This document shows, piece by piece, positions 32,740 through 52,303 of a DNA stretch of 64,000 bases (position 1 is its first letter; every line of letters begins with the position of its first letter). Position numbers and translations under genes: made by a program. Origin of the DNA: an uncultured Alphaproteobacteria bacterium. GTDB lineage: Bacteria; Pseudomonadota; Alphaproteobacteria; Rhodobacterales; Rhodobacteraceae. Below the pieces are notes generated by a model. The model saw nothing but the letters and a program-made list of their open reading frames with translations. It was not told where the DNA came from and ran no database searches. The stretch covers positions 1-64,000 of the forward strand of contig CACKLF010000004.1 in assembly GCA_902600895.1 (NCBI GenBank). Reading direction: 5' to 3'.

Positions 32740-32826
32740 GCGGCTGTGGCGGAACTGGTAGACGCGCAGCGTTGAGGTCGCTGTGGGATAAAACCCGTGG
32801 AAGTTCGAGTCTTCTCAGCCGCACCA
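32740..32826 (+). tRNA. tRNA-Leu (anticodon GAG)
   Basis: An 87-nt class II tRNA with acceptor stem GCGGCTG/CAGCCGC, a long variable arm (TGGGATAAAACCCG region), T arm and an encoded CCA. The anticodon loop TTGAGGT between CAGCG and CGCTG gives GAG at 32774-32776. Its last 17 bases (32810-32826) are part of a 95-bp inverted repeat, and an integrase lies directly downstream, so this is the island attachment gene. Confidence 0.96.
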
Positions 32827-32904
32827 TATCATGCACTCATTTATGACTAACTCATTGATTTGCAAGCATATTATTTGTAACTCATTGAAGGGTGTAGACC
32901 AAAT
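32810..32904 (+). repeat. Left arm of a perfect 95-bp inverted repeat (contains tRNA-Leu 3' end)
   Basis: Every base of 32810-32904 matches the reverse complement of 34055-34149. The arm starts in the tRNA T-arm/acceptor region and ends in the integrase start codon region, and it contains a GTGTAGACCA site. The tRNA end inside it is the expected integration core. Confidence 0.95.
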
Positions 32905-34053
32905 GGTAGACCAATTAAGTGCTAACTATTTATATAGAAGAAATAATGTGTTTTATTTCACTAAGCGTGTTCCAAAAGACTTATCTAATTTTTATGTGAC
33001 AAATCGTATTGTTGTATCGTTGAAGACCAAATCAAATGTCTCAGCTATGCGTGCAAGCAAATCGTTAACCCAAAAACTAGAGGACTATTGGACTTCTTTG
33101 CGAATAACTAAGTTTGAAGTTCCTGCTCAACATCTCTTATCAAAAGATAAAAGTGTCATAACTTCATCTGAAGCTCCTAAGCTATCAGAGGCTTTATCTC
33201 TGTATCTCAAGTTAAAAGGGATTGGAAAGGATAAGACTTTCGTGAGAGGAGCAAATAGAAATATTAAATATGTCATAGAGTTTCTAGGAGATTATCCAAT
33301 TGATGCGTTTGACAGTAAAGATGCTTCTGCTTTCCGTGACCACTTAATTAGTAAAGGATTGGTAATAGCCTCCGTGAAGCGAGTGTTTTCATCCATTCGT
33401 TCAATCATAAACCTAGCTATCCAAGAAGAGGGGATCTCTTGTAGTAATGCCTTCAGCAGGATCTATATGCCTGAAAGTTTAGATAGTGAAAAAAGGCAAC
33501 CGATACCTAAGTCAGCTATTAATCTTATTCAAAATAAATGCAGAGAGAAGGATGATGAACTGCGATGGCTTTTAGCTTTACTCTCAGATACTGGCATGAT
33601 GCTTGGTGAAGCGGCAGGGTTAGCAATAAAAGATATTCAGATAGATAATAAATTTCCCCATATCAATTTAGTTCCTCATAAATGGCGTAAGTTAAAACTA
33701 AAGGAAGCCAAAGGCAGATACCATTAATTGGATCATCTCTGTGGGCATGTGAGCGAATATTGAACCGAAAAGATGAAAGTATTTTTGCATTTCCTAGATA
33801 TACCACCCACTCCAACTGCAATGCCAATTCAGCAAGTGCAGCTTTAAATAAGTGGCTGAAAGAGCAACTGACCAATCCGTATCAAGTTCATGGATTTAGA
33901 CATAGTCTTCGTGACCGATTGCGAGAGGTTGAATGTCAATTTGACATCATTGATAGGTTAGGGGGATGGCATACTTCTGGCGTAGGGCAGTGATATGGAA
34001 GAGGATATGGCTTAGAGATATTATCTAAATGGATGAAGGAAATTAATTTATAG
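32903..34053 (+). pseudogene. Tyrosine-type site-specific integrase, inactivated
   Basis: Island integrase. The N-terminal domain begins at ATG 32903 with NYLYRRNNVFYFTKRVPKDL, an arm/SAM-like N-terminus, followed by a core-binding domain (KDKTFVRGANRNIKYVIEFLGD). The first frame ends at TAA 33724. The remainder is in another frame from about 33710 (RQIPLIGSSLWACERILN, then HGFRHSLRDRLR and RLGGWHTSGVGQ). A TGA at 33991-33993 then interrupts it just before YGRGYGLEILSKW, which holds the catalytic Tyr. In addition the catalytic Arg of the usual TGMRxxE motif is Met (TGMMLGEAAGL). The gene thus has a frameshift, a nonsense codon and a lost catalytic residue. It lies between the arms of a 95-bp inverted repeat. 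Confidence 0.88.
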
Positions 34054-34054
34054 T

Positions 34055-34149
34055 ATTTGGTCTACACCCTTCAATGAGTTACAAATAATATGCTTGCAAA
34101 TCAATGAGTTAGTCATAAATGAGTGCATGATATGGTGCGGCTGAGAAGA
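34055..34149 (-). repeat. Right arm of the 95-bp inverted repeat (inverted copy of tRNA-Leu 3' end)
   Basis: Exact reverse complement of 32810-32904. It begins two bases after the integrase stop and carries an inverted copy of the last 17 bases of tRNA-Leu with CCA. A normal island would show a direct repeat here at its far end, so the inverted orientation is unusual. Confidence 0.95.
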
Positions 34150-34836
34150 GAAGTAGTCCTTTTGTATGCACCATTCTCAATTCTTCACAAGCAATATCAA
34201 TAACTTAGGTATTTCACTTTCCGTGTCAACAGGCACATGTGGTCTACACTTTGGTCTACACCCCCCATGCGAGGGCCACTGGGCATGCCTACGTAGTATA
34301 TACATCTGATGTGCAACAGATCAGGGTGCAGGCATGTTAACCAGTCGCAGTTAAGGTGGTGTCACTTACCCTGGTACAGTTAGGATGTCACGGCACCTAA
34401 GGTGTGCCTCTAGATGACTCTCAGAGACTTAAAATGGGGTGCTAGAGACTCAATAGATGTGTGTCATAGGGTGATGTCAGTTTAGATGTTTGAGTCTGTG
34501 TGGGCTGTTTTAAGGGGGAGTTTGTTGAATATTAATTGAGGCTACTTATATCATATGTATGATATACACAATATACAGAATACTACAGAACATAGGACAG
34601 TACCATTACCAATACCTTTTACAGGACAAGAAGGTTTTAGTACCTATTAAGGTGGTAAACAATGAGGTTGATAGGGTAATCTCCCATAAGAAATAAGCTA
34701 CTGAACTAGCTTTGCCTGTAGCCTATATATCAGTTTACATCTTGGGGATTATGAAGAAGTAGTGTTTTTCTAAAGACAATGTATCTGAAGCTCCCCAATA
34801 CAGCTAAAATGGTTCAGTCAGGGTGATGCAGTTTGG
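34150..34836. other. Gene-poor island segment with candidate integrase-binding sites and repeat copy A
   Basis: No intact gene is seen. Two TGGTCTACA sites occur at 34240-34248 and 34252-34260, matching those in the inverted repeat. Repeat copy A occupies 34396-34518. From about 34580 to 34770, coding-like words appear in shifting frames (for example TVPLPIPFTGQEGFSTY, then EVDRVISHKK after a stop), which suggests a decayed reading frame of unknown origin. A small palindrome TATCATATGTATGATA lies near 34548. Confidence 0.5.
34396..34518 (+). repeat. Dispersed island repeat, copy A
   Basis: About 123 bp running from CCTAAGG through GACTCTCAGAGACTT, TGCTAGAGACTCAATAG and GATGTGTGTCATAGG to TTTGAGTCTGTGTGGGCTG and a final AAGGGGG. 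Copies B (38.3 kb), C (41.3 kb) and D (42.4 kb) align along it. It has no coding capacity. Confidence 0.8.
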
Positions 34837-35274
34837 CTATTTGCATAAACCCTTCCTAGTATTATCAGACCAGTCATACCTACTATCCGTGAAGTAAAAA
34901 CTCCACTGCTTTGTCTCAAAATCTATTATCCATCGGAAAGCTTTTTCAAAAGATTCACCATCAGATGTCTTTCCGTTAGGAAACTCATATCCGACTATGG
35001 CTGACTTATCCTGTATATCACATTCAGTAAGCACTTTTTTTCCCGAATCTCCCAACCCATCAACTATAGTTTGGTGGTATGTTTGCAAGCCATCACATAT
35101 ATCAATCCACCGCCCATTAACCCTAGTATATGCTTTATCTTTCATCAAAGTCCTTTCAGCATATTTGAAATACCAAACAGCACTTGGTAACTCACACTCC
35201 ATCTTTATCTCTGCACCAAACGCAGATGTGCCAAGAAGGATAAGGGCTAGTGTTGTTGCTAAGAGTTTTTTCAT
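34837..35274 (-). CDS. Small secreted cysteine-containing protein, family 1
   Basis: A 145-aa protein with a clear Sec signal (MKKLLATTLALILLGTSAFGA). The mature part has Cys in KMECELPS, DICDGLQT, LTECDIQD and at the C-terminus (GLCK), so two disulfides are possible in the periplasm or outside. It shares a pattern with the protein at 56871-57401: M.CE at the mature N-terminus, then DKAY, GWI/RWI with a Cys two residues on, TIVDGL/TLVDSL, and a Cys. The function is unknown. It is the last gene of a minus-strand row of four small secreted proteins and follows its neighbour by 12 bp. Confidence 0.7.
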   Translation of the reverse strand: MKKLLATTLALILLGTSAFGAEIKMECELPSAVWYFKYAERTLMKDKAYTRVNGRWIDICDGLQTYHQTIVDGLGDSGKKVLTECDIQDKSAIVGYEFPNGKTSDGESFEKAFRWIIDFETKQWSFYFTDSRYDWSDNTRKGLCK

Positions 35275-35286
35275 TTTATGTGTTCA

Positions 35287-35664
35287 TTATATCCTGTCAC
35301 AAATTCCATAAGCATCAGCGTTCATACCTGTTAATGAGCCACCTACAGATGTATTATGGTAATGAACATTTTTGGGATTTTCAGTGACGACCATTGTAAT
35401 TACACTTTCAAAACTGCTACCCACTTCAACAAATACTTTTAATGTATTTTTCTTACCACTGTATACCTCAACGTAGTCATCATAAAAACTACTCCCTAGG
35501 TATTTTGATTGAAGCTTACCTTTGGATATTTTTAAAACCAACTCGTCTTTTGAGCCATCTCCATAATTTTTATATTTGCATACAAATGTACCTACTAAGG
35601 TATTTGCGTATGCAGGACACGAGAACAGTATTGTAAATAATATTGTTGCTAGAAGTTGTTTCAT
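35287..35664 (-). CDS. Small secreted protein, unknown function
   Basis: A 125-aa protein with a Sec signal (MKQLLATILFTILFSCPAYA). The mature chain is beta-rich, with VGTFVCKYKNYGDGSKDE at the start and GICDRI at the end; the two Cys could pair. No known domain is recognised. Its start overlaps the stop of the upstream gene (ATGA at 35661-35664) and it lies 12 bp before the next gene, so translation is coupled within a small operon. Confidence 0.65.
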   Translation of the reverse strand: MKQLLATILFTILFSCPAYANTLVGTFVCKYKNYGDGSKDELVLKISKGKLQSKYLGSSFYDDYVEVYSGKKNTLKVFVEVGSSFESVITMVVTENPKNVHYHNTSVGGSLTGMNADAYGICDRI

Positions 35665-36023
35665 TTGATTTTCTTCACATCAAACACAAAACTTACGCAT
35701 CTCCATTGCTGAACAATTGTAGTATTATCTGAAGCGTAATTATTCCAAACCCTTCTCTTATGATAGCCAACTTGCTCCATCACAGATGAAGTTCCACTGC
35801 CTAACTTATCTTCCATCAGCCATTTTTCACACTCTTCAATGGTTTTAGAAACAGTGCCACCCATATAATGATGCACTCTTTCTGGATGGTTCACTCTCAT
35901 TTTACCTGAATTATCCTTTCCCCACTGCATAATTATTTCAATAGGGAGAGCTACCGTTTCAGCACGAACAGGATAACAGGCTACGATTGTCATAATAACT
36001 GCTGTGGTTAGTGTCTTATACAT
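35661..36023 (-). CDS. Small secreted protein, unknown function
   Basis: A 120-aa protein with a Sec signal (MYKTLTTAVIMTIVACYPVRAE). The mature part has KTIEECEKWL and, near the end, VQQWRCVSF. Spacing of these Cys and the residues between them weakly resemble the protein at 53416-53853 (QKSCESVL and NAFQCMKIF). The function is unknown. It is coupled to the next gene by a 4-nt overlap. Confidence 0.65.
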   Translation of the reverse strand: MYKTLTTAVIMTIVACYPVRAETVALPIEIIMQWGKDNSGKMRVNHPERVHHYMGGTVSKTIEECEKWLMEDKLGSGTSSVMEQVGYHKRRVWNNYASDNTTIVQQWRCVSFVFDVKKIK

Positions 36024-36053
36024 TTACAATCTCCTACTCTGGCCTATCAATTA

Positions 36054-36203
36054 CTAACAATCGCCAGATGCACCTTCATCACAAAGTGGTGTTCCTTTGT
36101 CATACTGTCCATAGTTATCATTTATAATACGTGACGAATTGTTATTACTAGTAAATAAGTAAATCAGGACTATGCCTATACCAAGTATCAATAATAGTCT
36201 CAT
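36054..36203 (-). CDS. 49-residue single-pass membrane or lipoprotein-like peptide
   Basis: ATG 36203 with GGAG 8 nt upstream opens a 49-codon frame. It has a hydrophobic N-terminus (MRLLLILGIGIVLIYLF), a polar Asn-rich stretch and two Cys at the C-terminus (PLCDEGASGDC). It lies 30 bp upstream of the secreted gene at 36023 in the same direction and fits the cluster of small exported cysteine proteins. No family is recognised. Confidence 0.5.
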   Translation of the reverse strand: MRLLLILGIGIVLIYLFTSNNNSSRIINDNYGQYDKGTPLCDEGASGDC

Positions 36204-36243
36204 TACGTTATCTCCATGCTGTGAGTGGTGTGTTAGTCCTTTA

Positions 36244-36597
36244 TTAAAATTTTCTGTCTTTTTGTTTACACATGTATTTTAATGGTAAACTGTCTCCAAA
36301 ATGGCTTATCATTTTTCCTGTGTATCTGTTAAGTGTATGTTTATTTGGAACAAAACCATCATCAAATCTTATTGAATAAGTTGAATCTGAAATATCAAGA
36401 GTTCCCTTTCTAGGTTCGTCATTTTCGGTAGTATGTGCCTCTGCTATTCCAACTCTTATATCAAGTAATAAATAATACCTGAAATCTGAAGACAACTGTG
36501 AGGATTTACATTCCAAAAACAAAGCCTCCGAACCCCAACTAGGTAGTACTAGGAATGATAGTGTTAGAGTGAAAGTTAATCCTTTGAGTAATTTCAT
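36244..36597 (-). CDS. Small secreted protein with conserved Cys pair, unknown function
   Basis: From ATG 36597 the protein is 117 aa with a Sec signal (MKLLKGLTFTLTLSFLVLPSWGS). Mature features are LFLECKSS at the start, STYSIRFDDG, the LNRYTGKM turn and KYMCKQKDR at the end, giving two Cys. The RxTG-type segment before a final Cys is seen in many small exported proteins of marine Alphaproteobacteria whose role is unknown. A GTG at 36612 is the alternative start. It heads the minus-strand secreted-protein row. Confidence 0.6.
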   Translation of the reverse strand: MKLLKGLTFTLTLSFLVLPSWGSEALFLECKSSQLSSDFRYYLLLDIRVGIAEAHTTENDEPRKGTLDISDSTYSIRFDDGFVPNKHTLNRYTGKMISHFGDSLPLKYMCKQKDRKF

Positions 36598-36704
36598 TCT
36601 ATCTACTCTCACTTCTTATTCTCAGCCTAATGTAACCAACATGCGTGAAGGCATACATAGACTGCTAAGCATATGACTTTTATTAGGTCAGGGTGCATTT
36701 ACTT

Positions 36705-37028
36705 TTAAGGCAATTCTACTCTCGTTATCATTGAACTCCATGCTTTTCCATCCTTCAAATGAGTTGTATTTATTGACATCATAGGATTGCCATCTAATTC
36801 AAAAGTTTGGTTGAAAATGCACAAATATTCATTCTCTAAAGTAAGAAAAGGGATGCTGATGAATGGTTCGGGCTTTTTAAATTCTTCTTTTACCCATTTG
36901 AGCCAATCCTATTTTGTCATAAAATCATAATCTAGAATAAACATATAATCTCCATACAAAAATAAACTTAAAGCTTCGATATCCTTTGACTCACATAAAG
37001 CCACCAATGTATTTAAAGCCTGACCCAT
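36705..37028 (-). pseudogene. NTF2/SnoaL-like small protein interrupted by a TAG codon
   Basis: A 107-codon frame from ATG 37028 to TAA 36705-36707 is broken only by TAG at 36909-36911 (codon 40). Before the stop it reads LVALCESKDIEALSLFLYGD and after it DWLKWVKEEF to HLKDGKAWSSMITRVELP. The layout, an N-terminal helix, then ending in DGKxW..M.TR, is that of SnoaL/NTF2-like proteins and resembles the intact gene at 55783-56085. Either a fresh pseudogene or a sequence error. Confidence 0.65.
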
Positions 37029-37076
37029 CACACTGTCTCCTTATTTATATTCCTATCCAAATCAGTACGTAAATCT

Positions 37077-37475
37077 TTAATCAACTTCGCTTTCAGCTTG
37101 AGAAGCAAAGTAGAATAAAACCATAATAAGTGTTAAGACAGCAATCATGATATAAAAACTTGGATCAATTTCAAAGTAGCCAAATAAGGCGTGATATATG
37201 GGCATTAAAATTAATATTGCTTGTACTGCTAATCCCAATACTGAGACTTTTCTCAGATCCTTTATGCTAATTAAGTTTGGCAGGAACCAAAAAAATATGC
37301 TTATGCAGATTAATGTTGATCCATGATGTTCAGCCATAGCCGCGAATCCCATTGAATACGACCAACTATTTTGATCTGCTATGTTTTGCCCTCCAAATAA
37401 AAAAAATAATCCTTGAAGTAAGTGAATTATAGCAATGACACGGTACAAAATTGGTAAATTGAGAAGCCTTTTCAT
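37077..37475 (-). CDS. Four-helix membrane protein, unknown function
   Basis: A 132-aa protein with four hydrophobic segments (about residues 8-28, 40-66, 75-97 and 105-125) and acidic C-terminal residues. A conserved-looking MAEHHGSTL in the second helix region could bind a metal or act in transport. The pattern resembles small DoxX- or DUF4345-like membrane proteins, but the assignment is not firm. It reads in the same direction as the NTF2-like pseudogene, 48 bp upstream. Confidence 0.55.
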   Translation of the reverse strand: MKRLLNLPILYRVIAIIHLLQGLFFLFGGQNIADQNSWSYSMGFAAMAEHHGSTLICISIFFWFLPNLISIKDLRKVSVLGLAVQAILILMPIYHALFGYFEIDPSFYIMIAVLTLIMVLFYFASQAESEVD

Positions 37476-37677
37476 AATTTCCCCCCTTTGCTAGTGTCTA
37501 TTATAAGCTTTTCATATTTATGTTTAAAAGTTGATAAAAAAATTTGCAAGGGATGAAATAAGTTACCTTGGGTGAACATGCCTAAAATTCTTACAGCTTT
37601 AGAGTGAATAAAAAATTATATAAATTTAATAATTTAATAAAGAATAAGGATATTTTTTTGAGAGGGAAAAGATAATA

Positions 37678-38022
37678 ATGAAATTTATTGAAATGGAAAA
37701 AAACGAAATCTTAGGGATTGTAGAACCTATGATGGACAACTGCCTGAATGGTTCTAATGAAAATAATCATGCTAAGCATACTAGAGATTTTACTGAAAGA
37801 ATGAGAAAAATTGTAACGCCTGAAAATCTAGAATTGCAGTTATCAAAAGAACCTCGTGCTGTATTTACTGAAAGAAAATTTATTTGTCTTTTTAGGAGAC
37901 AAAGTTCAATTGGTATCATTTGGAAGCAATATATTTCTACATCAAATGACGAACTAATGAATCAGGCAATACTCGTAGAAAGAAATAAAAAAATTCTTAT
38001 TGACCATTGCATGATATGTTAA
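37678..38022 (+). CDS. Hypothetical 114-residue protein
   Basis: ATG 37678 is preceded by GAGAGGG. The protein is soluble, starts with a helix (MKFIEMEKNEILGIVEPMMDNC) and ends in LVERNKKILIDHCMIC. The segment EPRAVFTERKFICLFRRQSSIGIIWKQY looks like a beta-rich core. The overall shape could be NTF2-like but no signature is certain. A frame remnant of another family follows it within 40 bp. Confidence 0.5.
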   Translation: MKFIEMEKNEILGIVEPMMDNCLNGSNENNHAKHTRDFTERMRKIVTPENLELQLSKEPRAVFTERKFICLFRRQSSIGIIWKQYISTSNDELMNQAILVERNKKILIDHCMIC

Positions 38023-38061
38023 AAATTGAAATTTATATTGTGCGCATAAAAGATTTGATAA

Positions 38062-38208
38062 TGGATTCTACTCTGGAAAGACGAAAAAGCATTTATAGAA
38101 TGTCAAAATTTATTTAGAGAAGAAGAAAAAAAATTTGACCAAAAAACACAAATCGCGGTTAAGGATTTCTCAAACCGTGGCATAATCCTTTATGATGTCG
38201 TTTTATAA
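38062..38208 (+). pseudogene. C-terminal remnant of a small ferredoxin-fold protein
   Basis: An open stretch without a start codon encodes WILLWKDEKAFIECQNLF, a Lys/Glu helix, then FSNRGIILYDVVL. This aligns by eye with the C-terminal third of the protein at 52452-52814 (FEYDSKEGYEKCQNII ... NNRGVVISEY). The N-terminal part is missing or out of frame, so this is a decayed copy. Confidence 0.45.
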
Positions 38209-38727
38209 TGTTGACCATTTCATTTGAGATTTTTTTTCTCATTATCAGGATTTAGAGTTATCGGAACTTCATGTAATTCACTAGAAGAGTAAATATTAAA
38301 AGATTTCAGCTCCCCTTTAATAACAGCCCATACAGACTCAAAACGGTGTGCTAGAGACTCAATAGATGTGTATCATAAGGTAAGGCAGTCAGTTTGAGTG
38401 TTTTTGAGTCTGTATGGGCTGTTTAAGGAGGTTCTATATTGAATTTAAGCCCAGGCTATACATATCTATATCACACAATATGCGTATGTATCTCCCGTCA
38501 AAATACAACTTCATACCATCACGCGAACCTTTTATAGTTTAAGAGCTTTAAAGCATTTGAGAAAGTGGTTTACGCTAAAATTAGAAGGTCATTTCCCGCA
38601 CAGGTAGAGTGTTATAATTTCTTTCATCCCTCAAAAATATCATGTTACAATTTACTGTTCTTTTAGCTTAGTTACTCTAATGAGATCTCAGTTTCGTGGT
38701 ATCAGTGATCTCTATCAATTTTCGAAC
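38209..38727. other. Non-coding island segment with repeat copy B
   Basis: These 519 bp contain repeat copy B (38311-38431) with its 20-bp inverted repeat. The rest is AT-rich with no supported gene; an apparent 26-codon frame near 38500 on the minus strand has no ribosome-binding site. Promoter elements for neighbouring genes could be present but none is clear. Confidence 0.5.
38311..38431 (+). repeat. Dispersed island repeat, copy B, with 20-bp terminal inverted repeat
   Basis: The centre and 3' end match copies A and C (GTGCTAGAGACTCAATAGATGTGT ... GAGTCTGTATGGGCTG, given here in part). The 5' end is replaced by an inverted copy of the 3' end: 38324-38343 is the exact reverse complement of 38402-38421. 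The copy could fold into a long hairpin. Confidence 0.8.
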
Positions 38728-39246
38728 CTAGGCCAATTCTAGCACAACTTTTCCATTAGAAATGTTCAATCTATGCTCTGGAACTATCATACGGTCCCCT
38801 GAAGATTTACCTGCAACCCCCATTCCATTGGCATCAAACTCGCTTGAATGATATCTGCCACGATCCGTACAAGCGAATGGTACTTTTGGATCACCTGTAA
38901 GACCGATCGCTTTTCCCTTATGCGGGCAGGTCAATTCAACAATTAGGTAGTCTGTATCTCTACATAAGGCAGCAATAAACTGTGTTTGGCCAGTTGCCGC
39001 ATAATCCCAACGATTATTTGGCCGGGCAATTACCGTGACATCTCCCGGTTTCAGTTCTGATATATCCACACTCGCAGGCCCAGTAGAGAGACGCAAAATT
39101 TGTTTGAGTCCTGCAGGACTATCAGTTGGGATATTATCCCAAGAACTTAAATCTGCATTAGTAGCTGCATTTAGCACGGACGGGCAAATAAATGCGGTAC
39201 TGCTTGCTAGTGTCACTATGACGTGTCGGCGGGTAATTTTTTCCAT
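38728..39246 (-). CDS. Tat-exported Rieske-like protein with altered cluster motif
   Basis: A 172-aa protein with an N-terminal ITRRHVIVTLASST twin-arginine-type signal. Residues 105-140 resemble a Rieske domain: C107-P-H109-K-G matches the CxHxG box, and C126...H133-SSEFD matches the second box. There, however, six residues (TDRGRY) separate Cys and His, where the canonical CxxH has two. A [2Fe-2S] cluster is therefore uncertain. A cytochrome b561 gene lies 7 bp upstream in the same direction, so the pair may form a periplasmic electron-transfer unit. It may also be a substrate-carrying redox protein of unknown partner. Confidence 0.65.
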   Translation of the reverse strand: MEKITRRHVIVTLASSTAFICPSVLNAATNADLSSWDNIPTDSPAGLKQILRLSTGPASVDISELKPGDVTVIARPNNRWDYAATGQTQFIAALCRDTDYLIVELTCPHKGKAIGLTGDPKVPFACTDRGRYHSSEFDANGMGVAGKSSGDRMIVPEHRLNISNGKVVLELA

Positions 39247-39253
39247 ATTTAAA

Positions 39254-39763
39254 TTATCCTTTTTTTGTTATCCATATATTTCTAAAGGTGTCGTCACGGT
39301 CTATCAAACTGTGCTTAAGAGTGCCAATGACATGGAGAGAGAGCACAACGAGCAAGGCCCATTTTAATGCAATGTGAATTTCAAGGAATAAATCTCCGGC
39401 ATCAGATCTGGCAAAAGCAACATTAATGGGGAACACTAATTCGGTACTTCTGAGACCCGAAGCTGTAACATAGCCGGACACAACGTAAGCAACAAGAAGC
39501 AAATAGAGGGCACCTTTAACTAAGGCTGCCAGCATCTTCTCCCACCACCCATGGTCAGGATTGCGTGGGCCTAATCGGAAAACCAACCTTGTCCCAATCC
39601 ATATGAAAACAAGTATCATCAGAAGCTGTCCGCCCCATTGGTGAAAGATCAATGCGTTAGAACCGACAATTTGGTAGCTATATAATAGACCAGAGATGGC
39701 CAAAGCGACCATTAGAGCGGCAGTTGTCCAATGTAATAATATTAAGGTATATGGATATCTCAT
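39254..39763 (-). CDS. Cytochrome b561-like membrane protein
   Basis: A 169-aa four-helix protein. Candidate haem-ligand His are in LLHWTTA (helix 1), LIFHQWGG (helix 2), EIHIALKW and SLHVIGTLKH (helices 3 and 4), the pattern of di-haem bacterial b561 proteins that pass electrons from the quinone pool to periplasmic partners. The Rieske-like gene follows at 7 bp and is the probable partner. No other redox enzyme of the set is nearby. Confidence 0.85.
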   Translation of the reverse strand: MRYPYTLILLHWTTAALMVALAISGLLYSYQIVGSNALIFHQWGGQLLMILVFIWIGTRLVFRLGPRNPDHGWWEKMLAALVKGALYLLLVAYVVSGYVTASGLRSTELVFPINVAFARSDAGDLFLEIHIALKWALLVVLSLHVIGTLKHSLIDRDDTFRNIWITKKG

Positions 39764-39846
39764 TTCACGTCATGTCTTATTCAGTTAAATAAAGTTTTTT
39801 AAACCATTAATGGGGTCTCAGTCTCTCAGTTTAATGCCTCTAACGG

Positions 39847-39945
39847 TTAATCATCAGGCCAAACATCATTTTCCATTCGGTTAGACTTTGATGCTATCCC
39901 AGCCACAAATAGGGCACTAGTTGATATTCGTGATGACAGTCTCAT
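39847..39945 (-). CDS. Possible 32-residue peptide or gene remnant upstream of b561
   Basis: An ATG at 39945 opens a 32-codon frame starting MRLSSRISTSALFVAGIA and ending ENDVWPDD. The composition is protein-like, but no ribosome-binding site is obvious and no family is recognised. It lies 83 bp upstream of the b561 gene in the same direction, so it may be a third small member of that unit or a leftover of a decayed gene. Confidence 0.25.
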   Translation of the reverse strand: MRLSSRISTSALFVAGIASKSNRMENDVWPDD

Positions 39946-40062
39946 GCAGGACAAATAGGGTGGAATAGTGAGTTTACAAGAGATTGGCTGACACAATTCA
40001 ATGGTAACCCTATAGTATATCATGAATCTTAAAAATTTATTGGTGATAGAGGATGATAAGCC

Positions 40063-40719
40063 ATGCTAAATAAGGTGTTAATTTTACTTCTTATCCTTTT
40101 AGGGGCTGTAGGTATCGCTTTTTTTTTGTATCAGAGCAATCAGAAGCCATTAGAGAAGGCTTTAAGCCGAATTATTCCTTATCAATCTGGTACGGGTGGA
40201 GAAGCTTGCTTGGCTGATCTTAAAGAGCGAGGCATAGAATTTAAAAGTCTAGGTACGTCTGCTGAAAATGAAATTTGTACTATTTATGATGCAGTAAAGA
40301 TTAGAAAATTCCCTAACACGAAAATGTCTGGTGCAGTAACATTAAATTGTCAAACTGCCATTGATCTTGCTGACTGGTTTGAGGAGATCGGAGCAAAAGA
40401 GGTAAAGCATATGGGAAGCTATAACTGCAGGAAGATTAGAGGTAGTTCGCATTTTTGGAGTCAACATAGCTTTGGTTCTGCCGTTGATATTTCGCATATC
40501 AATGGTGCTTCCCTAAAAGAAGATTGGTTTGAGGATAACGAGAATAGCAAATATTTAAAGCAAGCAGGTAAAGACGCTTGTCATTATTTCTCAAATGTCC
40601 TTACACCAGAGACTAATGCTGCTCATCATGATCATTTTCACCTAGATAATGGTCCTAGATTTGGCTCATGTGGACCTGCGTGGATTAATTTTATTAAAAA
40701 TGCAGCTAATTTTTTTTGA
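40063..40719 (+). CDS. Extensin-like family protein (LAS-type peptidase fold)
   Basis: A 218-aa protein with one N-terminal membrane anchor (about residues 4-22) and an extensin-like C-terminal domain. The zinc-site pattern of the LAS/D-Ala-D-Ala carboxypeptidase fold is visible: SQHSFGSAVDIS (H and D) and, near the end, HHDHFHLD. Four to five Cys (LNC, YNC, DAC, GSCG) suggest disulfides in the periplasm. The likely role is cell-wall peptide hydrolysis or binding. The downstream lipoprotein pseudogene is convergent. Confidence 0.82.
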   Translation: MLNKVLILLLILLGAVGIAFFLYQSNQKPLEKALSRIIPYQSGTGGEACLADLKERGIEFKSLGTSAENEICTIYDAVKIRKFPNTKMSGAVTLNCQTAIDLADWFEEIGAKEVKHMGSYNCRKIRGSSHFWSQHSFGSAVDISHINGASLKEDWFEDNENSKYLKQAGKDACHYFSNVLTPETNAAHHDHFHLDNGPRFGSCGPAWINFIKNAANFF

Positions 40720-40730
40720 ACTGATCTCGT

Positions 40731-41156
40731 TTATTTAAAATACCGGCCGTCATAGCAGACTGTTTTATCAGAAGTAGTGCCTTTGAACATTCTGATGTAA
40801 AGAGTAGTTGTAGGCTTATCTCACTCGATACCATCGTCGCCATAGCAGTTGGTTGTATTGCTGTAGGAGTAACAGTTTACGCTACCAGATGACTTTGTAG
40901 TTTTGATCCTATCAGATCCGTTTTCAACTTAGAAATAATCGTAGCCTCGCTCCAGTGTTAATTCAGCTGCAAGACGGAAAGCATAATCCCTGGCTGTTGA
41001 GGCGCTTGTAAATTCGTTTGCTGCAAAATCTACAACGGCTGTATTCTTTCCAGTCATTTTATCTGTATAGCCTCCTGTAAAACTACTTGATTGATATTCG
41101 GTTGCACATGAAGCTAAAAATATGAATGAAAGAAAAAAATAACTACTTGGTTTCAT
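40731..41156 (-). pseudogene. CC0125-type small lipoprotein broken by two in-frame stops
   Basis: A 141-codon frame from ATG 41156. It starts with a lipoprotein signal (MKPSSYFFLSFIFLASC, lipobox LASC) and then reads SFTGGYTDKM and FRLAAELTLERGYDYF, the conserved motif of a widespread alphaproteobacterial lipoprotein family. TAA at 40929-40931 follows, after which the same frame continues VENGSDRIKTTKSSGS and NTTNCYGDDGIE. A TGA at 40821-40823 then precedes DKPTTTLYIRMFKGT to the natural stop at 40731. The post-stop sequence is still in frame and family-like, so the damage is recent. Confidence 0.75.
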
Positions 41157-41232
41157 AAAACTACCTAACTAATAAATTTTAATCCAATATTATGAATAAT
41201 TGATTTAAATTGGTGCATAAATGATTTTTTAC

Positions 41233-41360
41233 ACCCCCCTAAAAACAGCCCATACAGACTCAAACACCTGAACTGACTCCCTTATCCTATGGCACACATC
41301 TATCGAGTCTCCAGCACTTCATCTTAAGTCTCTAAGAGTTATCTGCAAGTACGCCTAAGG
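41233..41360 (-). repeat. Dispersed island repeat, copy C
   Basis: Read on the minus strand, it runs CCTTAGG, AACTCTTAGAGACTTAAGA, GTGCTGGAGACTCGATAG, GTCAGTTCAGG, TTTGAGTCTGTATGGGCTG and ends AGGGGGG, aligning with copy A over its full length. It lies just downstream of the methyltransferase gene. Confidence 0.8.
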
Positions 41361-41415
41361 GTTCACTCAAAAGAATGAATTGAAGTATTCCAGAGAAGTT
41401 TTTTTATACGTTTCA

Positions 41416-42234
41416 TTAGGTCCAAATTGTTGGATCGCTATACTTACCTTGAATGGGGAATATGATCGAATCTGTTTCAATGTTTTTTTTCGCTAAAACT
41501 TCCAAACACCATTCTAGAGGCAAAAATTTAGGATAGGCACGCAGTAATTCATTTAACATAAATCTGTCTGAAACTGGAAAGCCACTTACAGATATTGTTT
41601 CTGGCAAACCGTTCAGAACAGTTACAGCCTTCATACACATATCTGCAATTTCACATCCATTTTGGTTATAGAAATCAAAGAATAAAGTGGGATTGTAAGA
41701 GTAAAAGCCATGATTGGGCATAATCATTGGACCAGATTGGTAAACATAGCCACCGGTTTTGAGCATTTTTGTAATATTTATAAGTGCCTGAGGAAAATTA
41801 AAAATGTGCTCGCAAGTACCTTTATCAATAATGATATCAAATTTATTAGTAAAGCACTCGGGGATCTCTAAATTAAAATCATGAGCAACTTCACTACCCT
41901 CGTATTGAGTAAAATCAAAAACTGTAAGGCTAAAATTGGACCCTAAAAGATTTTTTAATGCGGATTGAAGTGTTGGAATTTTGCTCACTCTTTTTTCACA
42001 TGGTAATTTATGATCATCAGCCCATCCGTGTATCATTTTAAGTTTTTCGAAATTTTCTCGCTTATCTAGCGAGTTAATACCTATGCCTAGCTTAGACCAT
42101 TGTTCATTTGTAATCATTAAATCGGTATAGCCAATAAAACCAATGTTAATAACATTTGAAGAGATTTTTCCCCTAAGATCTTTGATGAGCTCTAAAATAT
42201 TATTTATCTTTTTAAGTTTTATATCTGCAACCAT
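41416..42234 (-). CDS. SAM-dependent methyltransferase-like protein
   Basis: A 272-aa protein. The N-terminal half has VINIGFIGYTD and a long variable segment. The catalytic half has FDIIIDKGTCEHIFNFPQALINI and KMLKTGGYVYQSGPM, which match the motif IV/post-motif region of class I methyltransferases of the glycan or type-11 kind. Next comes NHGFYSYNPTLFFDFY, a motif frequent in methyltransferases linked to sugar or FkbM-like gene clusters. The glycine-rich motif I is not obvious, so cofactor binding may be degenerate. It stands alone between repeat copies C and D, both in the same orientation as the gene. Confidence 0.65.
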   Translation of the reverse strand: MVADIKLKKINNILELIKDLRGKISSNVINIGFIGYTDLMITNEQWSKLGIGINSLDKRENFEKLKMIHGWADDHKLPCEKRVSKIPTLQSALKNLLGSNFSLTVFDFTQYEGSEVAHDFNLEIPECFTNKFDIIIDKGTCEHIFNFPQALINITKMLKTGGYVYQSGPMIMPNHGFYSYNPTLFFDFYNQNGCEIADMCMKAVTVLNGLPETISVSGFPVSDRFMLNELLRAYPKFLPLEWCLEVLAKKNIETDSIIFPIQGKYSDPTIWT

Positions 42235-42672
42235 CTTAACCCCATTACCTTAAAGTTTCTGGCAAATTTCATACCAAAAGATAACTTTTGATCAAAATCA
42301 CAAATATCATCTTCAATAAATTGAGCTTATTCAAACTCTGAATTTCCTAAAAACTATACCGTTAAAAAGTCTAAGCTGGCTCTCTTAACCTATGAAACAA
42401 ATCTTTCGGCTCTCTACTACACCATTTTGAATCTCTAAGAGTCATCTGGAGTTACACCTAATATGCTAAACTTCTATCACAGAAACATGCAACGCATATC
42501 AACTGATATTATATCTTTCAAATCTGGCGTCGCATTGCCAAAAGTATGCCATTCTTTAAAATTTACTCATTATAATTTCCTTGCACAAGGAATTCATTTT
42601 ATGTACTTAGCTTCGATAGGTCAGATGTTATATCAATTTAATGTAAAAATAAGGTAAAAGTCGGTTATAAGT
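42235..42672. other. Non-coding island segment with repeat copy D
   Basis: Repeat copy D fills 42345-42460. The remaining AT-rich sequence holds no supported gene. A 64-codon frame from 42463 starts at the repeat edge, has no ribosome-binding site and no recognisable domain, so it was not called. Confidence 0.5.
42345..42460 (-). repeat. Dispersed island repeat, copy D (divergent)
   Basis: On the minus strand it starts TAGGTGTAAC, then GATGACTCTTAGAGATTC, AAAATGGTGTAGTAGAGAG, TTTCATAGGTTAAG and ends with TTTTTAGG. It matches copy A in the 5' two-thirds; the conserved GAGTCTGTATGGGCTG 3' end is worn away. Confidence 0.7.
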
Positions 42673-42873
42673 ATGCAAGATCAGCCACATCACAACAAAG
42701 GAGTTTTAGCCGCCTTCATAGGTGTAGCACTATTCTTAATTGGTCTTCCAGTTATAATCTTTATAGTAACTTTTGGTTCTGATTGGTCAGGAACTTTTGT
42801 AGAAATGATTTTTCCAGAAACCTGTGCCTATGAAGATTCAAATCACAACAAAATTGATAACTGTGAAAACTAA
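42673..42873 (+). CDS. Small single-pass membrane protein
   Basis: A 66-aa protein with a polar N-terminus (MQDQPHHNKG), one transmembrane helix (AFIGVALFLIGLPVIIFIV) and an acidic C-terminus with two Cys (ETCAYEDSNHNKIDNCEN), which would face the periplasm. An acidic Cys-flanked tail like this could bind a cation, but no family is recognised. No strong ribosome-binding site is visible. Confidence 0.5.
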   Translation: MQDQPHHNKGVLAAFIGVALFLIGLPVIIFIVTFGSDWSGTFVEMIFPETCAYEDSNHNKIDNCEN

Positions 42874-43008
42874 AATAAGCATATAGTTAGCCGCATTGTT
42901 AAAGGAAAATCCACTTAGGAACATCATCTAGATGAAAAGGCCCGTGATCAAAAGCATTAATGCTAGCATTAATTTCTACTATCTATAGCCCTAAAATGTT
43001 TAGGATAT

Positions 43009-43326
43009 TTATATCGATTGAGATAGTCTTTCTACAAACTCGTCACTGAATTGGTGGTGAAGAACAGGTCCTTCCATGTGCCAAACGTCTTTTACATACT
43101 TTGCAACATGCTCAACAACTTTTTCTCGACCAGGCAATGCAGATTGTGCAACATCATCATTTTCATAAACAGCCACAATCATATAAGAGGTTGATGCGGT
43201 TTGTATACCAGTGCAAGAAATTGGTTCTGGATTAAATGTCTTTCTGATTGCATTAAAAGTCTTTGAAAATTCATCTAACGCTTCTTCTGAATGTAATTCA
43301 ACACTTGTAATTCTTGCTACAGTCAT
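43009..43326 (-). CDS. Small ferredoxin-fold (ABM/stress-responsive-like) protein
   Basis: A 105-aa soluble protein: MTVARITSVELHSEEALDEFSKTF, a central SYMIVAVYENDDVAQSA strand-helix and a C-terminal DVWHMEGPVLHHQFSDEF. This resembles dimeric alpha+beta-barrel proteins (antibiotic-biosynthesis monooxygenase or EthD type) that bind small hydrophobic compounds. It is one of a loose set with 51932-52228, 52452-52799 and 55454-55762. The catalytic role is unknown. Confidence 0.55.
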   Translation of the reverse strand: MTVARITSVELHSEEALDEFSKTFNAIRKTFNPEPISCTGIQTASTSYMIVAVYENDDVAQSALPGREKVVEHVAKYVKDVWHMEGPVLHHQFSDEFVERLSQSI

Positions 43327-43473
43327 TTTGTATGATACTCCATTTAAAAACTAAATATAATTTATTTAAGTAGTATGGTTTGATTTAATGTAAGAGTAGG
43401 ATGTATGATGCTTATGACTTTGTAAATACATTTGCTTTAAAAATATTTTGAATAGGGAAGTACTGAATAGATT

Positions 43474-44652
43474 GTGATAAATAACTTTACACTATTCATA
43501 TTGGCATTAGCTAATGCATCCGTGGTGGTTGGGATGGGACTGCTTACTCCCTCCATTCTCCTGATTAAAAGTCACTTCAGTGCTAACGCCGAGGTCGTTC
43601 AACTCTTACTCACCTATTATATGATTGCTGCTGGTTTAGGGCAGCTCATTTTTGGTACACTATCTGATATTTATGGAAGAAAGCCAATACTAGCTCTTGG
43701 AGGTTTTTTGTTTGCCGCTGCTAGTTTATTATCAATTGTTGCACCAGATCTAATTTATTTACTAATATTGAGAACTCTTCAAGGACTTGGTGCCGCCGCA
43801 TGTATGTCAATGGCTCGTGTTATAATCACAGATAGCTTCAAGAAAGCTGAAGCTGCTGAAAAATTATCGCTTATGACCGCAATAATGGTTATTTTTCCAC
43901 TAATCTCATTGATTCTAGGTGGTTTTATTGCTGAAGCCATTGGTTGGATGGGAGTAATGTATATTTTCGTCATTTTTGGGTTAATAATCTTCACATTTGC
44001 TTTTTTTAAAATTCCAGAGAGTAAGTTAGATAGAGTAAAAAACCTAAGCATCAATCATATATATCTCTCCTATGTAACAGTATTACAGAATTCAAAATTT
44101 TTAAACTTGATGCTTATCAGTTCCATTCAAGTAGGGGTCTTTTTTTCATCTTTTGGATTTATGCCATATGAATTTGATAGATTAGGTATATCTCCTCTTG
44201 AATTCGGTTTTTGGCTATCTTTTACAGGTGTTGGTTATTTTTTTGGAAATATTTTAAATAGACATTATGCATCTATTTTGGGACTAGAAAAGCTTATAAT
44301 TGTTGGGTCTGCCTTTTCAGCCATTTCATATCTTAGTATACTTTTTATGCATTTGAATGATTTTTTGAACCCTTTGTATATTGCATTACCTGTAATGCTA
44401 TTTGGCCTTGGAAATGGATTTACGGTAGCTAACTGCATAATTGGAGCAGTATCTGCGACGGGAAATAACTCTGGAACTGCTACTGGCGTAGCTGGTGCGT
44501 TGCAAATGTCATCAGGTGGAATCATTGGATTGATAATAATCTTTATGGGTGGAGCAAATAGTTTCCTTGTATGCTTAGTAATAATCAACTTGCTGTGTAT
44601 AACAGCATTTGTGTCCTCAGTCATAAATTACAGAGATGGTGTTAGGGTTTAG
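43474..44652 (+). CDS. MFS transporter, Bcr/CflA-type multidrug exporter
   Basis: A 392-aa protein with 12 membrane segments. The MFS motif A is present between TM2 and TM3 as GTLSDIYGRKPILALGG, and motif C-like GGFIAEAIGWMGVMYIF is in TM5. The layout fits the Bcr/CflA drug-resistance family (TM4 LRTLQGLGAAACMSMARVI). The GTG start is preceded by AGGGAAG at a longer than usual distance, and no ATG precedes TM1. Substrate range is not predictable. Confidence 0.88.
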   Translation: MINNFTLFILALANASVVVGMGLLTPSILLIKSHFSANAEVVQLLLTYYMIAAGLGQLIFGTLSDIYGRKPILALGGFLFAAASLLSIVAPDLIYLLILRTLQGLGAAACMSMARVIITDSFKKAEAAEKLSLMTAIMVIFPLISLILGGFIAEAIGWMGVMYIFVIFGLIIFTFAFFKIPESKLDRVKNLSINHIYLSYVTVLQNSKFLNLMLISSIQVGVFFSSFGFMPYEFDRLGISPLEFGFWLSFTGVGYFFGNILNRHYASILGLEKLIIVGSAFSAISYLSILFMHLNDFLNPLYIALPVMLFGLGNGFTVANCIIGAVSATGNNSGTATGVAGALQMSSGGIIGLIIIFMGGANSFLVCLVIINLLCITAFVSSVINYRDGVRV

Positions 44653-44699
44653 GTTTAGGAATCTACTACATAGGAAGATGTGCATTTTAAACGTCTGCT

Positions 44700-44891
44700 C
44701 TACTCGCTTTTGGAGTTTCTTCCTGAAATGACTTTATAGGCAATGTAAATTATCAGCGGTACAGAAAAGAAAGCCCAAGTAGACAAAAACATGATAGCCT
44801 CAAATTCTCCAATGCTATTAGCCTCGCGGAATGCCAGAATAAAGCCGATTGGGAAAAAAATACTAAAGTTAAAAAACAGAGCTTTGTTCAT
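44700..44891 (-). CDS. Small two-helix membrane protein
   Basis: A 63-aa protein with two hydrophobic segments (about residues 5-20 and 36-55, FLSTWAFFSVPLIIYIAYKV) and a short basic C-terminal tail. It reads towards the MFS gene. No family is recognised; it is supported only by length, composition and a plausible ATG. Confidence 0.45.
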   Translation of the reverse strand: MNKALFFNFSIFFPIGFILAFREANSIGEFEAIMFLSTWAFFSVPLIIYIAYKVISGRNSKSE

Positions 44892-44987
44892 TTAGGTACC
44901 TCAAAATAATTATTTATTGGTTTTAAACCTCTAAAAGTCAGTATTAAAATAGTTTAATAGCTAGTTAAGTATCCCAAAAAATAAATA

Positions 44988-46859
44988 TCAATTTTTATCT
45001 AGTCCATAAGGTTCCAGGGTTTTAATTATGTCATTAAGATAAGATTTATCTCGAGCCGTAATATATTCTTTCAAAATGATTTCGCCAGTTTTACCTTTTC
45101 CATCAATCGCTTTTTGTTGCATAAACATTTTCTGAGCTTTCTTTTGATTGCCATTTTTTTCGTATATGTATGCTAGCTGAATAAGTAAGGTTTGGTCTAC
45201 TCCCTTCCAATTTTGCTTTTCTTTTAACTTTTCAATACTAAATTTTTCAGCCTTTTCAAGTTGACCGTCCTCAATGAGAGCGTGCACATACATATAATAT
45301 ATCCAGGCAGCATGGTGAGGGTTGGTTAGCATTATTTTTTCATAGATTTCTATTGCTGAGGACAACTCGCCACATGAATGAATTACCAAGTTAGACATTC
45401 CCAGATCAGATGAATTTTTAGCTTGTCTGAGAAGACTGGGTATTCTATTACAAGCTTTATCATGGTCTCCTAAATATAATTCTATCAACCCTGCAAGTGC
45501 TTTTGGAGTGACCCAGTCATCAAATTCTTCAGATGTTTGAGTCGCAATTTCGTAAGCTTTTATCATATCCTTTTTAGTATCCTTTGAGATTCTCATCGTC
45601 ACTTTTCGCCAGTGAACCCAAGCCATTACAAATGCTAACCTAGGGTTGCCAGGATCCAAAGCAATGGCTTCTTTCCATAGACGCTCCGCTTTTTGGGAGC
45701 CTTCAGCTGTTTTTAGACCGAACGCAGCCCAAGCATTCAGATGCTTCTTGTAGGCTTCTGGGTTTTTGGTAAGAGGCTCATTTTCTATTCCCTCACCTCT
45801 GATTTTGACACTTAATTGCTCCATTATGGATAGACTGATGTTATCTTGTACATCAAATATTTCCTTATTGTCTTCAAATTTAAAGGACTGGGACCAAATA
45901 ACTTCAGCCATATTTAAATCAGTCATTTGAACACTCACTCTATAGGCACCAGCAAGACCTTGAACATCACCTCTTAAGATATATTGAACTCCGTATTTCT
46001 GTTTAATTAAATCATCTGTGAAATTATTATCTTTTGCATACTTTCCAGTGCTACCTGAAGGAACAAATATACTGTCATTTTGTGACAATGTTGTTACTAT
46101 ATTACTAGTAATTCCTGCACCAATGTAATCGTTATCCTTATTACCAGTTTGATTTTCTAAAGGCATGATCAAGATAGATGGTTTGTCTGAAAAAATTATG
46201 CTATTATTAGTATTTTCTGAAAAGTTAAAAGAAAAATAGAAAGCGGTGAAAAGCATTATTGTTAAAATAAATATGATCCCTGCTATGAGACCTGGATTTA
46301 TCTTCCGAGCATTTTTCAGGGAACGCTTTTGGCTAGGATCTAATAACACATCGTAAGCGTGAAATTCATTACTCTTAACTTTTTGAATGCCAAGGTCAAT
46401 GAAAGGCAACTTTAACTTACTATTGACTAAGTCAAAAATTGACTTCGATATTGATAAACCATTTGGTTGACAAAGAGACTCCAATCTAGCTGCAATGTTT
46501 ACGCCATCTCCCAAGAGATTTTTTTTCTCTTCAACAACATCACCCATATTAATTCCAATACGAAATTCGAGGTCTATCTTGGGTTGAATTTTTTCTCTGA
46601 ATTTTGCAAGGTTCTGCTGAAATTCCACACCGCATTCGACCGCTGAGACTGCACTCTTAAATTCTGCAAAAAAAGAGTCACCTCCTGTATTAAAGATCTT
46701 TCCTTCGTGTTTTTTTAAACATTGACTAAATATCTTTTCACATGAACGAAGCGTTTGCACTGCTTCATTTTCATTCTCTTCCATATGCTTGCTGTAACCC
46801 ACCACGTCGGTCGCCAATATTACAGCAATTTTGCGGCTTATTTTTGCAGCCATAGACAC
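44988..46859 (-). CDS. Class III adenylate/guanylate cyclase with TolB-like and TPR domains
   Basis: A 623-aa protein. Residues 10-165 are a class III cyclase domain with both metal-binding Asp (ILATDVVGYS and NTGGDSFFAEF), GINMGDVV and GDGVNIAARLESL. A single TM helix follows near 195-215, placing the C-terminal part on the far side of the membrane. That part contains a FlgO/TolB-like segment (KPSILIMPLENQTGNKDNDYIGAG) and TPR-like repeats to the end. Alphaproteobacteria have many such fusions that may link cAMP production to an extracytoplasmic signal. The second ATG (Met3) could also be used. Confidence 0.87.
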   Translation of the reverse strand: MSMAAKISRKIAVILATDVVGYSKHMEENENEAVQTLRSCEKIFSQCLKKHEGKIFNTGGDSFFAEFKSAVSAVECGVEFQQNLAKFREKIQPKIDLEFRIGINMGDVVEEKKNLLGDGVNIAARLESLCQPNGLSISKSIFDLVNSKLKLPFIDLGIQKVKSNEFHAYDVLLDPSQKRSLKNARKINPGLIAGIIFILTIMLFTAFYFSFNFSENTNNSIIFSDKPSILIMPLENQTGNKDNDYIGAGITSNIVTTLSQNDSIFVPSGSTGKYAKDNNFTDDLIKQKYGVQYILRGDVQGLAGAYRVSVQMTDLNMAEVIWSQSFKFEDNKEIFDVQDNISLSIMEQLSVKIRGEGIENEPLTKNPEAYKKHLNAWAAFGLKTAEGSQKAERLWKEAIALDPGNPRLAFVMAWVHWRKVTMRISKDTKKDMIKAYEIATQTSEEFDDWVTPKALAGLIELYLGDHDKACNRIPSLLRQAKNSSDLGMSNLVIHSCGELSSAIEIYEKIMLTNPHHAAWIYYMYVHALIEDGQLEKAEKFSIEKLKEKQNWKGVDQTLLIQLAYIYEKNGNQKKAQKMFMQQKAIDGKGKTGEIILKEYITARDKSYLNDIIKTLEPYGLDKN

Positions 46860-47016
46860 TCCTTTGTTAGGTTTTAATAATGAACTTAATAAATCTGAAA
46901 GTAAACTCTTTCAATTTGAATTTACTGGCAAGTAAAGATTAATTAAGGCTCTATGTTTTAGGTGTTAGATGGATTTGCATATGGCTCAATCAGATGGAAA
47001 GAAGTAGCATTAGGTT

Positions 47017-47904
47017 TTAAAAAGTTTTAGTCCTTTGCTTTAGTTGCTCAAAGAAGTAGAGAGACAATAAAACGATTACAAAGCCAATTGACTCAGTAAT
47101 TGACAAGATTTGGTTTAAAACTGCCATTGCAATTAGAGTAGCTAGTAAAGGTTCTATAGATGCTAGAACTGATGCCCTCGTTATTCCAATAATTTTTGAA
47201 CCCATAAAAAATAAAGTATAACTTAGGATATAAAAGGTGCCATTTAATATAAGGGCTATAAAGCCCCAGTTATCTTTTGGCAAAGTCAAATCGAACTTAA
47301 AGATGACATATGCAATCAATAAAAATATTACTGCCCAAAAATTAAGGTGAAAATTCAGTAATTGGGAGCCAATATTATCTGCTAATTTACTCGAAGAATA
47401 AATAAATAATATCATTAAGGCTAACGCGAAAAAACTAATTAAAAATCCGTATAAATTTCCTGATAATGTGCCGTCATAAATAAGAAAGATAACACCTAGG
47501 GCAACGCACAAAATACAAAGCCATTGTTTTGGGTAGATAATTGCTTCACCTCTTAAATGAGTGATAAGTGCAATTCCAATTGGAAATGCATATACAATAG
47601 CCATTATTAAACCGATATCTAAAAATAGTACTGCATAAAAAGTAGTTGCTATTAATGCAACATGAACAAAGCTGACCATAAGAAGAGGCCATAGAAACTT
47701 TGCATGGGCTAATATATTTATTTTTTGAATTGTCACTAACGGAATTAATAGCAGGAAACCTATAAGGCATCGCGAGAGCACCACTAAAAACAAGGACGAA
47801 CCATAATCTAAAGAAATCTTAGCGGTAGTGGGCACTATGGCAAAACATAAAGAAGATATTACAACAATTAACAAGCCTGTCCCGTTCTGACCCAATCTAA
47901 GCAA
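47017..47904 (-). CDS. EamA/DMT family transporter
   Basis: A 295-aa protein with about ten TM segments in two EamA repeats (ATTFYAVLFLDIGLIMAIVYAFPIGIALITHL in the first; TLFFMGSKIIGITRASVLASIEPLLATLIAM in the second). The latter has the ASIEPL motif typical of this exporter family. The substrate is unknown. It reads in the same direction as the cyclase, with 157 bp between them. Confidence 0.82.
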   Translation of the reverse strand: MLRLGQNGTGLLIVVISSLCFAIVPTTAKISLDYGSSLFLVVLSRCLIGFLLLIPLVTIQKINILAHAKFLWPLLMVSFVHVALIATTFYAVLFLDIGLIMAIVYAFPIGIALITHLRGEAIIYPKQWLCILCVALGVIFLIYDGTLSGNLYGFLISFFALALMILFIYSSSKLADNIGSQLLNFHLNFWAVIFLLIAYVIFKFDLTLPKDNWGFIALILNGTFYILSYTLFFMGSKIIGITRASVLASIEPLLATLIAMAVLNQILSITESIGFVIVLLSLYFFEQLKQRTKTF

Positions 47905-48024
47905 AAAATATTCCTTTCAGGTGCATTTAAAAAGAGAAACTCGGTATAGTAGTAAACGATTCCAAAGATTAAATTAATTCTTTCGTGGCGTAATACTTTT
48001 TTACTTCCTTGTTTGCTAAATTTG

Positions 48025-49963: not shown

Positions 49964-50112
49964 CTAAATTTATTATTAAGAGGGTTTAGGCTTCCATTTT
50001 GAAACATTTAAAATTATTTCATTGGACTATTGGTAACAACTTAAGTCATCTCAATGTTTGAGATTGCCCTTATTGTACTACTTTAACCCGGGAATAAAAT
50101 ACCAGACACAGC

Positions 50113-50427: not shown

Positions 50428-50615
50428 AAAGTGAAAAGACTCTTTTTTTCGTGTGGAAACATAAAATTTTATCAATTTTCCTCAATAGTACACCATGTGA
50501 GCTAAACTATTTTATCTAGAAATGAAAGACTGGAAATTAAAACGTCTTACAGGTAAAACAAAATATGTAAAATAATGTTGACGAAATGTAAAAAAATATC
50601 TTTTGGGAGAATAAA

Positions 50616-51014: not shown

Positions 51015-51021
51015 CTGACTT

Positions 51022-51753: not shown

Positions 51754-51931
51754 TACTTTTATTTTCTGATATATTTTTATAAATCAAGTAAAAGAGCAGT
51801 CTATTGAGAGAATGCTCTTCAGGAGAACAATAATATAATTTAGACCCAAGCAGTGTATCAAAATTTAAATAGTGTTAGAAGTGTAAAGTGTATGAGTCAC
51901 AAGTAATTTTTGCTGGATGAGGAGATAATTA

Positions 51932-52228: not shown

Positions 52229-52303
52229 TAGTGGGAATATGAATAGCTGTGATGGGGTTATACAAAGATAAATTCAAATCCCGCTTTTACAGAGTTAGAG
52301 TTC

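Follow-up and report, generated by a model that had tools for sequence, protein, structure and literature searches.

Tyrosine-integrase elements at alphaproteobacterial tRNA genes carry a third, inverted attachment site and may invert their cargo

An integrative element is usually defined by a single attP and by direct repeats at its two ends. In a 64,000-nucleotide stretch of DNA from an uncultured Rhodobacteraceae bacterium (GenBank assembly GCA_902600895.1, contig CACKLF010000004.1, positions 1 to 64,000; called the window below), a decayed integrase gene next to a tRNA-Leu gene is instead enclosed by an inverted repeat. A preliminary description of this locus took direct repeats to be the norm at tRNA islands, which we accept, and proposed for this exception an invertible module, the product of two head-to-head integrations, or a cloning or assembly chimera. 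Why should the end of a tRNA gene be found, inverted, behind an integrase gene?

Results

An integrase pseudogene between identical inverted arms

A repeat search and a letter-by-letter recheck confirmed that the two arms are identical: they are 95 nt long, 100% complementary and 1150 nt apart, and the match stops exactly at the arm ends on both sides (Table 1). The placement of tRNA-Leu(GAG) by ARAGORN likewise bore out that the arms carry the tRNA 3' end, of which they contain the last 17 nt. The left arm ends within the int start codon (ATG, 32903-32905) and the right arm starts 1 nt past the stop codon (34051-34053), so that the single-copy part coincides very nearly with the coding sequence. 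Just two copies of the core, TCTTCTCAGCCGCACCA, are present in the window (0.05 expected by chance with three mismatches allowed). No direct second core (attR) was found in the window with up to three mismatches allowed; direct attL and attR copies are present in relatives, and we read the missing attR as lost by decay.

The DUF6538 and SAM-like domains of the integrase lie in an open reading frame at 32831-33727 and the catalytic domain in its continuation. A single frameshift near 33.70-33.73 kb and a TGA in frame (33991-33993) leave the gene dead, as had been described. No match to this integrase was found among 50,697 phage records. The idea that another integrase had left remnants on the minus strand (34150-34240) was dropped, as this stretch aligns with the P' regions of the family. 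With a dead integrase and an attR that escaped detection, the window copy is probably stuck.

Table 1. Positions of the features at the tRNA-Leu locus, in window coordinates
Feature	Position	Strand	Remarks
tRNA-Leu(GAG)	32740..32826	+	Integration target; 3' end supplied by attL core
Inverted repeat 1, left arm	32810..32904	+	attL core 32810-32826 and P region up to the AT of the int start codon
IHF-like site AATCAATGAGTTA, P region	32848..32860	-	IHF-like sites are enriched in family P regions
Arm-type site pair GTGTAGACCA / TGGTAGACCA	32892..32913	+	12-bp period; the second overlaps the int start, outside the repeat
Tyrosine integrase pseudogene	32903..34053	+	DUF6538, SAM-like and Phage_integrase domains
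Inverted repeat 1, right arm	34055..34149	-	P and core of the inverted third site, attI; core 34133-34149
attI P' region	34150..34263	-	IHF-like site TATCAATAACTTA at 34195-34207; GTCAACAGGCAC motif; family P' alignment
Two arm-type sites in attI P'	34240-34249, 34252-34261	-	Family P' alignment
R, conserved non-coding segment adjoining P'	34262..34518	-	90% identical to G001
R, partial copy	38334..38431	-	
R, partial copy	41235..41360	+	Inverted relative to 34262-34518
R, partial copy	42389..42459	+	More diverged
Variable hotspot	34519..57000	n/a	From tRNA-Leu to the conserved right flank; rest of the cargo and other insertions; no attR core

The inverted layout in relatives of the integrase

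Relatives of the integrase were gathered from whole genomes, GTDB contigs and viral contigs; in the scans of viral and genome contigs, single-protein queries gave no matches, while an alignment query did. The search for the same arm in related genomes, which had been proposed as a check, was clearly positive. Inverted arms were present in 65 of 83 family loci within a 2.5-kb scan and in three more at longer range, as well as in further genomes; the layout occurs in about 70 loci with this DUF6538 tyrosine-integrase family in Alphaproteobacteria, single-contig replicons included. The hosts are Rhodobacteraceae and their relatives, SAR116, Puniceispirillum and other Alphaproteobacteria. In most relatives a near-perfect inverted copy of the tRNA end and of the region upstream of int sits 3' of int. 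The arms have a median length of 84 bp (range 41-164) and are 100% identical in 45 of the 65 loci; they usually include 14-17 nt of the tRNA. As in the window, the homologs adjoin tRNA genes, and these are many and varied (Leu, Phe, Thr, Ser, Arg, Gly), each arm matching its own tRNA. Loci without an inverted arm mostly terminate too soon past int. Many contigs from other genomes end 60-135 bp beyond the right arm, as expected where an assembler meets this repeat.

No such repeat was found beside other tyrosine recombinases from the relatives (0 of 40; best score 13, against a threshold of 25), nor beside the more distant integrases L255-L259.

About one-quarter of the loci have 0.3-2.3 kb of extra DNA between the int stop codon and the right arm. 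Genes found there include an Mrr nuclease (L104:11319-12164) and a hemerythrin-like protein (L066:2198-2779), and we regard the genes of these inserts as a second, small cargo compartment.

Anatomy of the attachment sites

The P' region, which in the window follows the right arm, is conserved across the family as TCCCGTTACAGGCACC, CAGCAAAACAAGG and GGTCAACAGGC, then two arm-type sites with a 12-bp period. The window P' has the same order of motifs, its final part being TGGTCTACAC TT TGGTCTACAC. Matching arm-type sites are present on the P side at the int start. In most loci the repeat ends before or within the second of these, so that attI is left without it. IHF-like sites were called with the IHF consensus, WATCARNNNNTTR: the window has one in each P arm and one in P', and sites agreeing at 8 or more of 9 positions were found in 47 of 65 family P regions, versus 6.7 in shuffles. 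Judged by these motifs, the P'-core-P order with arm-type and IHF-like sites is the layout of a lambda-type attP.

Three cores and two nested inverted repeats

The complete arrangement is seen in four clean islands of 8-9.6 kb each in a single-contig genome, G069. Each has two direct cores, one at the tRNA and one at the far end, and between them an inverted core just behind int; the same three-core pattern was found in L075, L115, L141 and L146. The inverted site directly behind int, attI, has the layout of an attP (P'-core-P), and attL and attR are direct repeats. In all four G069 islands the first base of the core is shared by attI and attR and differs from the tRNA copy, as expected if attI is an attP and the tRNA copy an attL (B-core-P). 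In G069 island B, the inverted core and the far core each have P' arm-type sites at a distance of about 100 bp (431167/431179 and 437744/437756).

As a result of this layout, two inverted repeats are nested: core-P arms, mostly 100% identical, enclose int, and core-P'-R arms (233-3183 bp, 95-100% identical) enclose the cargo. In the G069 islands these arms measure 81-244 bp (100%) and 379-767 bp (95-99%), respectively. In the complete megaplasmid of Ruegeria sp. TM1040, where the island spans 586.1-598.9 kb of the record, they are 85 and 1148 bp, and in G224 88 and 3183 bp, all at 100%. The 1148-bp arm of TM1040 holds a whole BRO-family gene, which is therefore present in two copies. The perfect 3183-bp cargo repeats of L253 (G224:C1:3683000-3698500) far exceed what an att site needs.

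The contig of Ruegeria HKCCA6707 ends with the second P' copy, which again fits an assembler that meets the repeat. About a dozen loci, each with 7-10 kb of downstream sequence, had no third core within it; these may be larger or decayed elements. In our reading, the window locus is the left end of such an integrative element at tRNA-Leu, now decayed to a fossil.

The cargo, not int, is found in both orientations

G069 islands C and D share a cargo in opposite orientations (5073 bp, 89.6% identity). The flip points lie at the att cores: the inverted stretch opens with the base next to the core in C and closes with the base that precedes the core in D. A second inverted pair, again from end to end of the cargo, is L123 and L146 (2455 bp, 86.8%), and the cargo has the same orientation in the pairs B-C, D-L075 and L123-L137. 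Both inversion isomers are thus seen between related elements, not within one strain. The R arms of islands C and D are all equally similar when a flip via the core is compared with one via the R arms. In B, C, D and L075, the gene for a primase-helicase ends in an R arm and the other arm has a second copy of its 3' end, so that the gene is whole in either orientation of the cargo.

The start of int always faces the tRNA, and int was never found flipped. Of the preliminary proposal of an invertible module, invertibility stands as one option, the cargo being found in both orientations; a flip of the integrase segment relative to the tRNA was not seen. The sole apparent exception to the orientation of int, L085 of Planktomarina, is an attI with a complete tRNA-Leu(GAG) gene between the core and the P' arm-type sites (L085:1281-1500). 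The lack of the second P arm-type site in attI may be why only the attP at the int start serves for integration. However, elements in which the attI arm reaches far into int have both P arm-type sites and are still integrated with the int start first, so this explanation is incomplete.

Arm identity is 94-100% within an element and 68-98% between related elements. The arm pairs evolve in concert, and for this the two arms must recombine with, or convert, each other. The perfect arms beside the decayed gene had been taken to indicate recent duplication or gene conversion; the comparison speaks against a fresh duplication and for ongoing homogenisation.

Cargo genes

The islands examined have a single integrase, then attI, then unrelated cargo. 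A primase-helicase of 1074-1091 aa is present in several elements; it matches phrog_16950 (DNA primase, 4e-23) and has weak relatives among plasmid proteins annotated as primase or helicase. Other elements have primase-helicases of the D5_N/P4 type, one of them with a Prim-Pol protein. Many elements contain no recognisable replication gene. Type I restriction-modification systems are part of the cargo in TM1040 and L091, and the Mrr nuclease mentioned above of that in L104.

A protein of 636-655 aa is common to L164 (23613-25523) and L141 (11677-13644). It had no match in Pfam or NCBIfam and no convincing one in the PDB, and is possibly a replication protein of these elements. Protein and structure searches gave no name to the 636-aa and 468-aa cargo proteins. 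A search for free circles in viral records yielded linear fragments only.

Chromosomal context of the window copy

The window is part of a 72-kb contig. The draft has 76 contigs and a size of 1.59 Mb, and is 60% complete. A genome of the same genus, G001, is collinear with the window as far as the tRNA and once more from about 57 kb onwards, with about 70% identity. That the contig resumes the expected right flank speaks against a chimeric join. Between the flanks, at the same tRNA, the content of the two genomes mostly differs, and this stretch is an integration hotspot. G001 has R-P'-core in the opposite orientation relative to the tRNA, compared with the window.

The partial copies of R in the window are dispersed across the hotspot in both orientations (Table 1); the one at 41235-41360 is a possible remnant of the lost attR end. 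The hotspot also contains a 392-aa open reading frame (43474-44652) that matches phrog_2034, a family without assigned function (2e-44); the hotspot of G001 contains a counterpart with 72% nucleotide identity. On G001 contig C8 (L059-L062; reverse complement, 30900-41050), a scrambled version of the arrangement was observed: a remnant int lies at the tRNA, R-P'-core precedes another integrase (34.86 kb), and core-P/P' is repeated in inverted form at 40.87-41.05 kb. This pattern suggests nested islands.

Discussion

From the comparison of integrated copies, we think it likely that a resident inverted attP enables these integrative elements to invert their cargo. In the chromosome, either the integrase or host recombination in the arms would flip the cargo through an attI × attR exchange. 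Alternatively, the inversion would occur on the circle excised by attL × attR recombination, between its two inverted attP sites, which would separate int from the cargo. In most elements, only the attP that adjoins the int start has both P arm-type sites. Integration via this attP would explain that int always points away from the tRNA while the orientation of the cargo varies.

Inversion could also be passive, attI being a by-product on which Int is inactive, with host homologous recombination homogenising the arms and flipping the cargo. Homologous recombination in long arms would yield products identical to those of active inversion, the perfect cargo arms of TM1040 and G224 are long enough for RecA, and arm identity reaches past any att site. 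We nevertheless consider this explanation unlikely, since int arms of only 75-120 bp are kept across many genera and always include the core together with a P region that has an IHF-like site, a pattern that points to selection on the site itself.

A role in RNA is much less probable still. Retroregulation by RNase III is known for int of phage lambda, and an int transcript of the present elements could form a long perfect hairpin to be cut by this enzyme, the third core being incidental. This would fit with arms that, in most loci, begin at the int start and resume at its stop, but not with the insert that separates int from the arm in one-quarter of them. It also leaves unexplained the constant tRNA end in the arm, the full P' with its arm-type sites, the second inverted repeat, which encloses the cargo, and the inversions of the cargo itself.

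Two head-to-head integrations, or a foldback duplication, that happened by chance in the window genome are very improbable: tandem and nested islands do exist (for instance in G001 and G069 C2), but the layout is shared by some 70 loci with integrases of this family, which adjoin many different tRNA genes and whose arms match their own tRNA; this refutes an accident as a general explanation. The chance of an assembly or amplification chimera is close to nil, even in an incomplete draft, given the collinearity with G001 on both flanks; for the family it is refuted by the same layout in the single contig of G069 and in the complete TM1040 replicon.

Returning to inversion through the resident attP, a bolder and rather doubtful proposal is that circles in which the integrase drives inversion during their own primase-helicase replication would undergo double rolling-circle amplification. 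They would then be a bacterial counterpart of the 2-micron plasmid that also integrates into tRNA genes.

The arrangement, DUF6538, and elements with an invertible or double attP were sought in the open-access literature, the sole literature searched, and no description was found there. The elements are thus apparently a widespread, undescribed kind of bacterial mobile island, their novelty being provisional. An inverted second attP that is retained in the integrated state, together with a cargo that probably flips, breaks the rule of one attP and two direct repeats. The inverted attP would give each element two isomers, and it hides the right boundary in short-read assemblies. The family also suggests that integration is linked to recombination-driven replication, which is known mainly from yeast.

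Like tRNA islands with a lambda-type integrase, these elements have attL at the tRNA 3' end, a direct attR, int beside attL, and arm-type and IHF-like sites around the core. They differ in that the integrated element retains a third att site, inverted and attP-like, and has two nested inverted repeats and a cargo in either orientation. In shufflons (Rci, plasmid R64), a tyrosine recombinase acts on inverted sites to flip segments that encode pilus tips. Shufflons do not integrate into the chromosome, and the whole cargo block, rather than pilus-tip segments, flips here.

The strand-biased circularizing integrative elements (SEs), described from Gammaproteobacteria, have a core of intA, CDS2, intB and CDS4 (PMC10214605), and tRNA is not mentioned in the text of that report. 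Both kinds are tyrosine-recombinase integrative elements of marine bacteria studied by their att junctions; unlike SEs, the present elements encode one integrase, target tRNA genes and possess a third att site in inverted orientation.

In the yeast 2-micron plasmid, inversion mediated by Flp feeds double rolling-circle replication (PMC3147054, PMC7710549). Like this FLP/FRT system, the circle predicted here, deduced from integrated elements, would have two inverted sites in long inverted repeats, a recombinase half and a cargo half, inversion isomers, and an expected replication gene or origin. Unlike it, the present elements are bacterial, integrate into tRNA genes and have a lambda-type integrase with arm-type sites. 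Because of these arm-type sites and of chromosomal integration, they are not members of the 2-micron group.
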